Of a DNA stretch of 64,000 nt, positions 16,545-21,251 are shown piece after piece (within the stretch, counting starts at the first letter, position 1; each line of letters starts with the position of its first letter). Origin of the DNA: Brevibacterium oceani (GTDB lineage Bacteria > Actinomycetota > Actinomycetes > Actinomycetales > Brevibacteriaceae); assembly GCF_013623835.1 (NCBI RefSeq), contig NZ_JABKDE010000005.1, forward strand, positions 186,001 through 250,000, written 5' to 3'. The position numbers and the translations under genes are program-made. The notes beneath the pieces are model-generated. The model worked only from the letters and a program-made list of their open reading frames with translations. It was not told the origin of the DNA and made no database searches.

Positions 16545-17132
16545 ATGAGCACCCTCGTTCTGCTGCACTCCGCTCTGGGCCGCACACCCGGCATGGAGGG
16601 CATCGCCGAACGCTTCACCGCGGCCGGTCACACCGTTCATATCCCGGACTTCTACGAAGGCCGGACCTTCACCACCGCCGAGGCGGGCGTGGGTCATGCG
16701 CAGGAGGTCGGATTCTCGACACTGGTCGACCGCGTGAGTGCCGCCTGTGAGGGTCTCGGCGACGAGCTCGTGTTCGCTGGGCTCTCGTTGGGCGCCGCCA
16801 TCGCCCAGCAGATGGGCAAGAACGACACCCGGGCCCGCGGCGTTCTGCTCTTCCACGGCGGAGGCTTCCCGAAGCCGACCCGCTGGCAGGAGCAGGTTCC
16901 GGTGCAGGCCAACTTCGCCGTCGATGACGAATGGCGCACTCCCGGCACCATCGAGACCCTCATGGAATCGGCCACACGTGCAGGAGCGCAGGCCGAGCAC
17001 TTCCTCTACCCCGGCAGCACGCACCTGTTCAGCGACCCCACACTGCTGGACTACCGCGAGGAGGCCGCCGACCTTCTCTACTCGCGAGCCCTGGCCTTCC
17101 TCGACCGCGCCCAAGATTCCGGCCGGCCCTGA
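16545..17132 (+). CDS. Dienelactone hydrolase-like alpha/beta hydrolase
   Basis: 195 aa. ATG 16545 is preceded by GAGAGGAA; sequence upstream in frame is the neighbour's tail. The alpha/beta-hydrolase order is visible: LVLLHSALGRTPGM, nucleophile elbow GLSLGAA with Ser where classical dienelactone hydrolase has Cys, an Asp in FAVDDEWRTPG and the catalytic His in PGSTHLF. It starts 46 bp after the glutamate-synthase-like gene, so the two may form an operon. Its last 48 bp (17085-17132) and the next 70 bp recur at 18906-19023. Confidence 0.82.
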   Translation: MSTLVLLHSALGRTPGMEGIAERFTAAGHTVHIPDFYEGRTFTTAEAGVGHAQEVGFSTLVDRVSAACEGLGDELVFAGLSLGAAIAQQMGKNDTRARGVLLFHGGGFPKPTRWQEQVPVQANFAVDDEWRTPGTIETLMESATRAGAQAEHFLYPGSTHLFSDPTLLDYREEAADLLYSRALAFLDRAQDSGRP

Positions 17133-17202
17133 TGCCGGGTGCCGCCGGCGACTGATGCCGCTGCTGCTGGGGACCGCTGATGCCGGGCAGACAGGCGGCC
17201 TC
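17085..17202 (+). repeat. 118-bp direct repeat, copy 1 (hydrolase 3' end)
   Basis: Aligns without gaps to 18906-19023 with about 10 mismatches in 118 positions by eye. It covers the last codons of the hydrolase gene (RALAFLDRA), the stop and the following CTGATGCCG-rich sequence. Together with copy 2 it brackets the AbiEi/DUF559-like gene. Confidence 0.85.
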
Positions 17203-17248
17203 CCCGCTGAGCACCGGCCTCCCTCATCCATTGTCGATACCGCTGACC

Positions 17249-17331
17249 TCGCCGACCGCCCACTTCACAGCCGGCTTCTTCACCGACCGCTCAGCTTGAC
17301 GCCCACCGCTCACATTAGCGACGGCTTCTTC
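17249..17331. repeat. Degenerate tandem arms next to the left palindromic element
   Basis: Three weaker copies of the arm motif GCCGACCGCTCAAGTTAGCG occur here: near 17249, 17282 and 17301. They are separated by repeated CGGCTTCTTC segments (around 17270 and 17322). They look like decayed tandem copies of half of the adjacent palindrome. Confidence 0.6.
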
Positions 17332-17403
17332 GCCGACCGCTCAAGTTAGCGCCCACCGCTCGCCGCATAGCTTGATACAGCGTCGTTAACTCGAGCGGTC
17401 GGC
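17332..17403. repeat. Left 72-bp palindromic element
   Basis: Arms 17332-17351 (GCCGACCGCTCAAGTTAGCG) and 17384-17403 are inverted repeats matching at 18 of 20 positions. The 32-bp centre contains GCTCGCCGCATAGCTTG (17358-17374), which occurs perfectly inverted at 18715-18731 in the right element. Confidence 0.8.
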
Positions 17404-17688
17404 AGATGCTGCCCACAGGAGGCCGCTCTCATCCCTGCCGTCTCGTACAGACTTCGCTATCCAGTCCACCCAACAAGCACCTCTCTCCCTCGCGGCTTGA
17501 TACTGCCCACCTCGTCCACAACTGCGCTCAACAGCCTCAGCCCCACGATCCCGTACCCCACGGCACAGTCTGTGTCTCACACACTCGTGTGCCGCCAGCC
17601 CATGCACTCAAGTAGCCCGTCATGGTCATTTGTGGCTATTTGATATTTAATATTGATTTTTAATGAACTTTAATACACCATTTATGTC
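17404..17688. other. Non-coding approach to the DUF559-like gene, A/T-rich end
   Basis: No gene is supported here. The last 65 bp (17625-17688) are strikingly A/T-rich for this chromosome and hold several TTTAAT/TAATAT runs that could serve as a -10 element for 17689. There is no Shine-Dalgarno sequence before that ATG. The base composition marks this stretch as foreign to its surroundings. Confidence 0.55.
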
Positions 17689-18657
17689 ATGGTGACAGTC
17701 TTCAGCACCAGCAAGCTTCGCGACTTCGGGTTTGCGGACAGAGACATCCGCTCCGCTCTGAATTGTTGCCTTGAGAAAGTGCGGCGGGGTAAGTTCACTC
17801 TCCTCGAAGAGTGCGCGACCGAGTCTCACGCGATATTGCATGCGGTGCATGCTGCGTCGAACACGTCCTACCCGAAGACCTTTGGGGATATGCGAGACAA
17901 GTCCGAGAGGCTCAAGAAGCTCATTCGGTCCTATGCCGACGACCTGCTGCCCGGCGCGGCCTACTCTCATGTCTCCGCAGCACTCCTGCACGGACTCGAT
18001 CTGCCCTACACTCCAGTCAAACAATGTGAGATGCTCAGGGCCGACACCCGCCGCAGCACTCCGACTCTGCATATCCGCGACCGCAAGGTTTCACCGGACG
18101 ACATCGCCACCATCGGAGGTCTGCCTGTCACGTCCCTTGTCAGAACGCTCATAGACATAGCCCGCGACTACGAACTCGAGTTCTCTGTTCCCCTCCTCTC
18201 AGAGGCGCTCCGCAGCAAGAAGATCGACAAGTCGGAGCTGCTCGACGCACTCACCCCGGCCAGCAGAGGCTGTCGATCCGCCGCCCTGGCTATCGAACTC
18301 TCCGACGAGAGGCATGACTCGGCGGCCGAGTCGATCTGCGCGGTCAAATTCTTCCGTTTCGGAATCACTGGGATGGTTCCACAGGTCACGACTGTCGACA
18401 GTGACGGTCGTTTCATCGGAATCAACGACTTCCGCCATGAGAGATACATGCTGATCGTCGAATGCCATGGGGTGGGCAAATATTTCATGGGTCGCAACAG
18501 CCCCGATGCGGCGAGCAAGAAGAACCACGAGCGGCATATGAGACTCCTTAACGAAGGTTTCCGAGTCTTCAACCTCGTATGGGCAGACCTTTTTCAGCCG
18601 CGCGAGTTCATAAAGATCAAGGCTGCTCTCGATACCCTGTCCAGTCGCGACCACTGA
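17689..18657 (+). CDS. AbiEi-like / DUF559 (Vsr-fold nuclease-like) protein
   Basis: 322 aa. The N-terminal part (about 5-55) resembles the winged-helix of AbiEi-type antitoxins: TSKLRDFGFADRDIRSAL, then VRRGKFTLLEE. The middle carries the family pattern YSHVSAALLHGLDLP and IGGLPVTSLVRTLIDIAR. The C-terminal part (about 210-322) resembles DUF559: SAAESICAVKFF, GINDFRH, then VECHGVGKYF, giving an E-D-ExxG-K array like PD-(D/E)XK nucleases. Such proteins are common in actinobacteria, often as orphans without an AbiEii toxin, and none is visible here. GC is lower than in neighbouring genes, and repeats flank it on both sides, which together suggest transfer. The role is unproven; defence or DNA repair is possible. 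Confidence 0.65.
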   Translation: MVTVFSTSKLRDFGFADRDIRSALNCCLEKVRRGKFTLLEECATESHAILHAVHAASNTSYPKTFGDMRDKSERLKKLIRSYADDLLPGAAYSHVSAALLHGLDLPYTPVKQCEMLRADTRRSTPTLHIRDRKVSPDDIATIGGLPVTSLVRTLIDIARDYELEFSVPLLSEALRSKKIDKSELLDALTPASRGCRSAALAIELSDERHDSAAESICAVKFFRFGITGMVPQVTTVDSDGRFIGINDFRHERYMLIVECHGVGKYFMGRNSPDAASKKNHERHMRLLNEGFRVFNLVWADLFQPREFIKIKAALDTLSSRDH

Positions 18658-18905
18658 GAGGACCGAGTGCAACCGCGGCCCTTTCACCCACCGCGCACCT
18701 TAGCAACTCTGTACCAAGCTATGCGGCGAGCAGTTGTCGCTAACTTGTGCGGTGGCGGGGTGGCAACAGGCTAAGACGCGCGGTCGACCGTAACTTGTAC
18801 GGTCAGCGAAACAACGCTGGCGGACGTGACAGATTGTCGGCGAAACGGAAGTGGACCGGGACAGCGCTTTCCACCTCCGGGCACCGGGCCCAAGGCAGCC
18901 GATTC
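18658..18905. other. Non-coding right half of the island
   Basis: Apart from the palindromic element at 18686-18757, another degenerate arm (GACCGTAACTTGTACGGTCAGC, around 18785-18806, itself an inverted pair) is present. No gene is supported. Confidence 0.5.
18686..18757. repeat. Right 72-bp palindromic element, inverted relative to the left one
   Basis: Aligned to the reverse complement of 17332-17403 it shares the perfect 17-mer CAAGCTATGCGGCGAGC (18715-18731) and the arm CGCTAACTTGTGCGGTGG; the outer left arm is more diverged. The pair therefore acts as terminal inverted repeats around the gene at 17689-18657. Confidence 0.75.
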
Positions 18906-19023
18906 CGAGCCCTGGCCTTCCTCGACCGCGCCTGAGACTCCGGCCGGCCCTGATGCCGGGTGCCGCCGGCAACTGATGCCGCTGCTGCCGGGTGCCACTG
19001 ACTCCGGGCAGACAGGCGGCCTC
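18906..19023 (+). pseudogene. 118-bp direct repeat, copy 2: fragment of hydrolase 3' end
   Basis: Copy of 17085-17202, including the codons for RALAFLDRA and a stop, but without the rest of the hydrolase gene. It ends 25 bp before the SDR stop codon. It is a gene remnant left by duplication or by the event that placed the island here. Confidence 0.75.
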
Positions 19024-19048
19024 GCCCACCACTGATGCCGGGGTTGGC

Positions 19049-19852
19049 TCAGTTCATGACGAGGCCGTTGTCGACGATGAGGTTCTGGCCCGTGATCGCA
19101 CGTGAGGCGGGAGAGGCGAAGAACACCACCGCCGAGGCGAACTCCTCGGGTGTGGTCACACGTCGCAGCGCACTCGCGGCAGCGATCTGGTCGAAGACCT
19201 CCTCCGGGGTGGCCGAGGACGCATCGGTGGTGCGAAGCAGACCTCCGGAAACCATGTTCACGCGCACTCCGACCGGGCCGAGGTCCTTCGCGAAGGTCCT
19301 GGTCAGCGACAGCAGGGCCGCCTTGGCCGCGGTGTAGTCGTGGTACGGCACGACGGGATCCTGGAACAGATTGGTCCCGATGTTGATGACGCGACCGGAA
19401 CCGATCTCGCGGAAACCATGCATCGCAGCCTGGATGGTGTTGACCGCTCCCTCGACCGTCCCCTGGAACTGGTCGGCGAAGTCCGAATAGTCGATCTCAT
19501 CGGCCGGTTGCCGATCCTCGCCGTTGAACGAGAAGTCAGCGAGCGCATTGTTGACCACCGTCGACACGGGAGACCCGAACTCGGCGGCCGCGGCCTCGAA
19601 CATCGCGTCGACCTCACGCGATTCGGAGACGTCGGCCTCGATGGCCACGGCGCGTCCACCGCGAGCGCGGACCGCCTCGGCGAGTTCCTCTGCGGCTCCG
19701 AAGGAATAGCGGTAATTGATGACGAGCGCGGCACCTTCGGGGGCGAAGGCCTTCGCGATCGCTGCGCCCAGGCCGCGCCCGGCCCCGGTGACGAGGACGA
19801 CCTGCTCATTCAACGGCAGAGCCTCGGAAGTGAAAGCCTGGGCATTGCTCAT
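19049..19852 (-). CDS. Short-chain dehydrogenase/reductase (FabG-like)
   Basis: 267 aa from ATG 19852; an upstream in-frame ATG would add 20 residues without a ribosome site. The Rossmann motif is VTGAGRGLGAAIA, Asn of VVNNA is present and the active-site tyrosine/lysine are in YTAAKAAL. The position of the catalytic serine, 13 residues before Tyr, holds Thr in VINIGTNLF, an unusual exchange that may still support catalysis. The end RAITGQNLIVDNGLVMN is typical for classical SDRs. It probably reduces a keto group with NAD(P)H. It is convergent with the island and divergent from the ole region. Confidence 0.88.
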   Translation of the reverse strand: MSNAQAFTSEALPLNEQVVLVTGAGRGLGAAIAKAFAPEGAALVINYRYSFGAAEELAEAVRARGGRAVAIEADVSESREVDAMFEAAAAEFGSPVSTVVNNALADFSFNGEDRQPADEIDYSDFADQFQGTVEGAVNTIQAAMHGFREIGSGRVINIGTNLFQDPVVPYHDYTAAKAALLSLTRTFAKDLGPVGVRVNMVSGGLLRTTDASSATPEEVFDQIAAASALRRVTTPEEFASAVVFFASPASRAITGQNLIVDNGLVMN

Positions 19853-20204: not shown

Positions 20205-21251
20205 ATGAACGAGCTCGGCGCCGGCATCTCCATCGGAGTCCTCGCAGCACTCGTCGTCTTCGTCATCTACATCATCGGTGCGAAGCTCGGACGATGGCAG
20301 CCACGGTCGGCATCCAGCAGACCGACCACTCAGGGCGGCTACAACCAGGGTGGGTACAGCCAAAGCGGCTACCAGCAGGGCGGGTACCAGCAGAACGGGT
20401 ACAACCAGCCCACGCGTGCCTACAGCAGCGAGGACGAAACCCGCGTCCTGCCGAACAACTCCGGCTACGGCACCGGCTACGACAATTCCCGCGACGACGA
20501 AGCCGACGAACCCCGAGCCACCAAGGCCGAACTCGCCGCGAACATCCAGCACTCCGGTCAGATGGTCGAAGCGAACCGCCGAGCCGCGACCGCCTCGAAC
20601 GGTGACACCTTTGCCGTGTTCACCTATATCTTCGGTGCCGCGCTCATCGCCGTCGTCGCCTTCGTCTTCTTCAACAACCTCCTGCTGCCGGCCACCATCG
20701 GCGCGCTCACCGGCGCCATCATCTGCGTGGCACTGTCGGCGACCTACACGCTGAAGCACCTGGATTTCTGGCCGGACAACGCCACGATCACGATCATCAA
20801 CCTCATCGTCGCCCTGGCGGCCTCGATCTTCATGTACATCGGCTCGGTGCAGACCCAGCGCGACAACGTCAGCCTCGGCACGATCACCGACTCCTTCGAC
20901 GCACTGCCCTTCAGCGACGGATTCTCCGCCTTCGCCCTGGCCATCGGCGACCGCGTTGTGACCTTCTTCAAAGACTTCGGGTTCTTCGGCTTCGTGTTCC
21001 TGCTGTTCATGGGCATCGGCTGCATCATCGTCTTCACGCTGGCCGCGAAGTCCCTCGTCGACGTCATGGACTGGCGGATCTTCGCCCAGTTCGGGCATTT
21101 CGTCACCGATCGGCCGATGTCGTACTCGCGTGCCGTGCGCTTCCAGACGAACAAGGTCTCACACACCGTGACCTCGATCGTTCTTGCGATCGTCGCCGTC
21201 CTCGCCGCCACCGGAACCCTCTACGACGCCTTCACGTGGTTCACACGCTGA
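20205..21251 (+). CDS. Membrane protein with Gly-Tyr-Gln repeat tail segment, function unknown
   Basis: 348 aa. One N-terminal helix (about 8-27) is followed by a disordered stretch (about 40-70) built of repeated GGYNQ/GGYQQ units, then a charged region. At least four further helices lie between about 140 and 348 (TYIFGAALIAVVAFVFF, ATIGALTGAIICVALSA, ITIINLIVALAASIFMYI, FGFVFLLFMGIGCIIVF). ATG follows AGGAAG. I do not recognise the family. It lies 123 bp before oleA on the same strand; a role in olefin biology is only a positional suggestion. Confidence 0.75.
   Translation: MNELGAGISIGVLAALVVFVIYIIGAKLGRWQPRSASSRPTTQGGYNQGGYSQSGYQQGGYQQNGYNQPTRAYSSEDETRVLPNNSGYGTGYDNSRDDEADEPRATKAELAANIQHSGQMVEANRRAATASNGDTFAVFTYIFGAALIAVVAFVFFNNLLLPATIGALTGAIICVALSATYTLKHLDFWPDNATITIINLIVALAASIFMYIGSVQTQRDNVSLGTITDSFDALPFSDGFSAFALAIGDRVVTFFKDFGFFGFVFLLFMGIGCIIVFTLAAKSLVDVMDWRIFAQFGHFVTDRPMSYSRAVRFQTNKVSHTVTSIVLAIVAVLAATGTLYDAFTWFTR

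Follow-up and report, generated by a model that had tools for sequence, protein, structure and literature searches.

Organisation of the locus

The window analysed here is a stretch of 64,000 nucleotides of Brevibacterium oceani (contig NZ_JABKDE010000005.1). It contains a gene for a protein of 322 amino acids (17689..18657, plus strand), in which an AbiEi-like part and a Vsr/PD-(D/E)XK-type nuclease fold were recognised from the ORF, PADLOC, AlphaFold, Foldseek and residue conservation (hereafter the nuclease gene). Its neighbours, both retained in synteny in congeners, are a DLH-family hydrolase gene on the left (16545..17132, plus strand; Pfam PF01738) and an SDR-family dehydrogenase gene on the right (19049..19852, minus strand; PF13561/PF00106). 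The next gene downstream carries, at 20331-20408, five 15-bp in-frame repeats in a Q/G/Y-rich coding segment.

The nuclease gene is bracketed by two kinds of repeats. The inner ones, detected by repeat search and genome search, are a palindrome designated C16-type (17332..17403, plus strand) and its inverted copy on the right (18686..18757, minus strand). These are the inverted 72-bp elements that had been described from the sequence alone; they align over 67 nt (17336-17402/18687-18753) with 81% complementarity, and each element of about 72 bp is itself an imperfect palindrome (arms 17332-17351/17384-17403, 90%). In a whole-genome search the pair was matched with an E-value of 3.5e-11. Two tandem partial copies of a palindrome half, of about 50 bp each (17250..17349, plus strand; repeat family, 76%), form a BIME-like array, the second of which extends into the left palindrome. 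A search of the palindromes against Rfam gave no match to a known RNA structure. The C16-type palindromes have no GTAG tetranucleotide at one end, and those of another type (C15, described below) carry CTAC/GTAG at both ends.

The outer repeats are direct, and their reported length and identity (118 bp, about 92%) agree well with the 121 nt and 91% measured between 17085-17205 and 18906-19026 (both plus strand; repeat search). Copy 1 comprises the 3' end of the DLH gene and the DNA downstream of it. Copy 2 is, as had been proposed, a stranded DLH 3' end, and comparison with relatives showed that it retains the stop codon at their position, where copy 1 has CAA. The DLH gene of the window (17085-17132 vs 18906-18953) has lost this ancestral stop (TGA to CAA) and gained a 6-aa extension. 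No transposase gene is present between the repeats, in line with the first reading; the ORF list places the nuclease gene alone there, and its product has no Pfam match.

Among the draft genomes compared, the 121-bp repeat is confined to the window genome, and a repeat of this type is absent from the relatives G043 and G019. Direct repeats of host DNA surround the unit in three genomes (121, 59 and 39 bp), while none were found in most; the other two occur in G005 (locus L115), where 59 bp of the SDR 3' end are repeated, and in G026 (L096), where the repeated DNA is 39 bp of intergenic sequence that is single-copy in relatives with an empty site. They do not correspond to a target-site duplication of fixed length, and the outer repeat was rejected as an element end, as G043 and G019 lack it and G026 and G005 have different ones. 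Because these repeats differ in both length and source, they point to one-sided recombination between donor DNA and an allele lacking the unit, not to a transposition signature. The 121-bp repeat is probably a one-off scar of the gain of the unit in the window lineage: a donor carrying the unit would have recombined with an empty DLH-SDR allele, so that the unit was regained and the repeat left behind.

The DLH-SDR site holds a member of the nuclease gene family in 16 of the 32 genomes on the local tree, over which its presence is scattered, and in the remaining genomes the gene is absent, so that the empty sites anticipated by the sequence-only reading do exist. Its expectation of different cargo fared less well: in G034 (L118) the place of the nuclease gene is taken by an RpiR-like regulator gene, and a gap of similar size occurs in G042 (L117), but nothing else was seen. 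In G026, G043 and G019 the site encodes proteins 67–68% identical to that of the window, again with the C16-type palindrome in inverted orientation on either side, and in a second group of species the proteins are 50–54% identical and the flanking palindrome is a different one. Across the genus, the family is found in 52 of 57 Brevibacterium genomes, and the nuclease gene has the character of a resident that is often lost.

The nuclease gene and its product

The description of a single low-GC gene with an A/T-rich promoter was borne out, the gene having a GC content of 57.8% (vs about 65–69% nearby) and the promoter window 49–52%. The promoter/operator region (17621..17688, plus strand) was delimited from its sequence and composition and from the upstream regions of homologues, in which TTTGATG-like boxes are repeated.

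The AlphaFold model of the protein is confident (pLDDT 91.8), and structural comparison supported, by weak matches, the suggestion of an AbiEi-like part joined to a nuclease fold. PADLOC gave a partial AbiEi match, and in Foldseek the N-terminal part resembled the AbiEi antitoxins 1zel and 6y8q (weak; E-values of the order of 1e-4, at 2e-4 to 5e-4, low TM). The C-terminal part resembled the Vsr-like nucleases 3r3p (I-Bth0305I) and 1vsr (weak; E-values about 0.03–0.04); for 3r3p the TM score, with target normalisation, was 0.68. The earlier DUF559 assignment applies to paralogues, of which L127, L130 and L131 exceed the Pfam cut-off for this domain (PF04480), but not to the window protein, which lies below Pfam detection. 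The C-terminal fold and the D...ExD/HG..K...R core resemble those of I-Bth0305I/Vsr and DUF559; unlike the former, the gene studied here is associated with no intron or intein and has palindromes on both sides.

Among 80 proteins without internal stops, reaching down to about 33% identity or less, E214, D247, E258, G261 and R282 are invariant (80/80) and K264 is kept in 77. Candidate catalytic residues are E214, D247, E258, H260, K264 and R282. The invariance of the nuclease residues argues for a selected and presumably active nuclease.

The N-terminal matches raise the question of whether the gene is an AbiEi-type regulator or abortive infection determinant, with the palindromes as its operators and the nuclease domain as a fused toxin or defence effector. 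AbiEi proteins do autoregulate through 23-bp inverted repeats in the promoter (PMC7319586), and both the PADLOC and the fold matches (6y8q/1zel) would fit a kinship to the type IV toxin-antitoxin AbiE (AbiEi; Rv2827c). We consider this explanation unlikely, as no AbiEii/DUF1814 nucleotidyltransferase toxin gene adjoins the nuclease gene, whose neighbours are the DLH and SDR genes, and as the palindromes flank the gene and trail unrelated genes instead of lying mainly in promoters. Unlike AbiE, the system also has a nuclease fusion and dispersed palindromes. A defence island or toxin-antitoxin module is likewise disfavoured: there is no partner gene, and the search for carriers among phages and plasmids gave none.

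Pairing with palindromes and their dispersal

The association of gene and palindrome was analysed in 83 different members of the family, of which 26 come from Actinomycetes other than Brevibacterium, with the flanks of the same loci shifted outward as controls. A matching element was present in both flanks of 67 genes (at least 35 bits), compared with 0 of 80 shifted controls, and matching elements were seen in 4.5% of mismatched gene pairs. Twenty of the 67 flank pairs are clearly inverted, 12 are clearly direct and 35 are too symmetrical to tell. With the threshold lowered to 30 bits, nine of the 83 genes still had no matching pair; one of these is the window-genome paralogue L130 (G000:C18:41930-42901), although its nuclease residues are intact. 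The palindromes thus belong to the nuclease gene and not to a cargo frame, since they accompany the family in 67 of 83 cases, also at the same DLH-SDR locus.

This bears on the idea, put forward in the sequence-only reading, that the two-layer frame is a single cargo unit, which a partner would move in trans or which repeat recombination would swap for other cargo. It draws on the fluid presence and absence of the gene at one site, on the host-DNA direct repeats of different origin in the three genomes and on a GNAT-like acetyltransferase gene that is enclosed by two C15-type palindromes in G003 (L265, G003:C1:1288202-1289211), where the window genome (G000, L230) has one palindrome; this gene may have been gained or lost by recombination between palindromes. 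However, one gene family tied to its own palindromes at many loci is not arbitrary cargo, and the outer layer, restricted to a single genome and replaced by other repeats elsewhere, fits one-sided homologous or illegitimate recombination with no defined end. The frame as a single unit is not supported, and we regard the cargo explanation as very unlikely.

The palindromes are also dispersed, as established for Brevibacterium, the only genus that the dispersal results cover. A genome search with a 17-mer, recommended in the first reading, yielded only two occurrences, but about ten further, diverged copies of the C16-type palindrome were detected in the window genome (E-values 4e-23 to 2e-8). 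These are solo, intergenic and located beside ordinary genes, and their conservation extends to the unpaired middle. Of six close paralogues checked in this genome, five have matching flank elements, and all five sequences differ. The palindrome of the C15 paralogue (C15-type) is present in about 28–30 dispersed solo copies, and those of the other paralogues in 1–3.

Copy number follows the gene. The C16-type palindrome was counted 12, 11, 14 and 14 times in the four genomes with an orthologue of at least 67% identity and 0–9 times in the others. For the C15-type, at least 19 matches were obtained in all 19 genomes with an orthologue of at least 60% identity and at most 8 in 36 of the 38 without one (Fisher 3e-13, p-values being optimistic since the genomes are phylogenetically related); these counts are not exact, being lower bounds in many genomes (only 16 candidates scored), and a symmetrical palindrome can be counted once on each strand. 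Numerous C15-type copies in the absence of a close orthologue were seen in two genomes, G014 and G017; these are close relatives of carriers and may have lost the gene.

C15-type copies are sited just behind genes, at a median distance of 8 nt from the stop codon, with 27 of 34 at a gene 3' end vs 27% of random positions. This siting may reflect target choice or mere tolerance. Together with the strictly compensated stems, it is what would be expected if the palindromes were transcription terminators or stabilisers of mRNA 3' ends, with the two copies at the nuclease gene serving as insulation and the nuclease having no part in their spread. We hold this to be improbable: the hairpins are followed by no consistent T-tract (mean 2.3 T in 12 nt), and such a role leaves unexplained the near-identical sequence at tens of sites, the different family for each paralogue, the link between copy number and gene and the base-pair swap in G053 described below.

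Concerted evolution of the palindromes and a possible mechanism

The orthologous nuclease genes of G053, G035, G027/G044, G017/G047 and G007 are each flanked, left and right, by a palindrome of their own. The flanking palindromes differ between orthologues on both sides together, and the changes in the stems are strictly compensated. Dispersed copies follow the same pattern, as stem pair 14/43 at seven orthologous sites is C-G in G053 and G-C in the window genome and G003, and the gene-flanking copies of G053 are also C-G at this pair. Identity between the window genome and G053 is the same for copies at the same site (0.839) and at different sites (0.843), and copies within a genome share identities of 0.977 (window genome) and 0.854 (G053). 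Seven independent compensatory swaps are implausible, so the pattern calls for copying from site to site or for repeated insertion; the species-specific swap common to the seven orthologous sites shows that the copies are homogenised within a genome.

Some orthologous palindrome sites are empty in G031 and G012, where flank divergence prevents definition of base-exact ends. No base-exact recent insertion was found when the eight C15-type copies of G048 were compared with very close species, and recent insertion polymorphism was rejected for these copies, since the sites with both flanks matched hold insert-sized gaps. The sole long gap in this comparison, in G035, corresponds to an MFS-type transporter gene. 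As most palindrome sites are common to close species, spread is slow or old.

Palindromes of the REP type occur widely in bacteria, and their spread is ascribed to REP-associated transposases (RAYTs). To our knowledge, RAYTs are the only enzyme family tied to such palindromes. Their transposase domain, Y1_Tnp (PF01797), was found in none of the 57 Brevibacterium genomes, while positive controls were recovered; the palindromes of these genomes are therefore not explained by RAYTs, and a RAYT origin was rejected. The RAYT/REP system nevertheless provides the closest parallel, having inverted REPs around the gene, coevolution of the two, a correlation between gene and repeat abundance and complementary stem changes (Nunvar 2010, PMC2817692). 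Like a REPtron (PMC2817692, PMC8266576), the Brevibacterium system consists of a single-copy resident gene bracketed by cognate palindromes, with dispersed intergenic copies behind genes, repeat abundance that follows gene presence, coevolution and compensated stems. It differs in its unrelated, Vsr/PD-(D/E)XK-type enzyme devoid of an HUH Y1 domain, in longer palindromes (55–75 vs 20–50 bp), in flank copies that can be direct and in the lack of a consistent one-sided GTAG tag.

We conclude that the unit is probably a REPtron-like pair, i.e. a Vsr-like nuclease gene bracketed by its cognate palindromes, with solo copies elsewhere. Judging from the folds, the AbiEi-like part would bind DNA and the C-terminal endonuclease would cut it. 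The protein may bind its own palindrome as a duplex, a cruciform or a single-stranded hairpin, and may nick or cut this palindrome or another target. Repair of the break from another palindrome copy would overwrite existing copies, resulting in concerted evolution, and the same repair could occasionally place a copy where none had been, directly downstream of a gene, the copying route being either single-strand transposition or gene conversion. Such cutting and copying by the cognate nuclease would explain pairing, specificity, dispersal and homogenisation together.

These data suggest that a second enzyme family, unrelated to RAYTs, spreads such palindromes. We propose more tentatively that, across Actinomycetes, independently evolved Vsr-fold nucleases might home in on their own palindromes and rewrite them by gene conversion of the cut-and-copy kind, giving rise to REP-like repeats without an HUH transposase. 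If a non-homologous nuclease family does share the REPtron hallmarks, the association of enzyme and palindrome evolved twice, a function is suggested for many proteins of actinobacteria that carry DUF559-like and AbiEi-like domains, and it becomes possible to test directly, in Brevibacterium, a harmless bacterium of cheese, how these repeats spread and remain uniform. No earlier description of a nuclease-palindrome system was found in the open-access (PMC) literature searched, nor any open-access PMC paper treating DUF559 together with inverted repeats. CGTC-tagged palindromic repeats are REP-like and were reported without associated transposase genes (PMC3733652); they differ in sequence and hosts, have no known enzyme partner and may be a parallel.

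At two sites in the window genome (G000:C13:300817-300965 and C14:355362-355900), C17- and C11-type palindromes adjoin each other, resembling mixed BIMEs or relics of lost genes.
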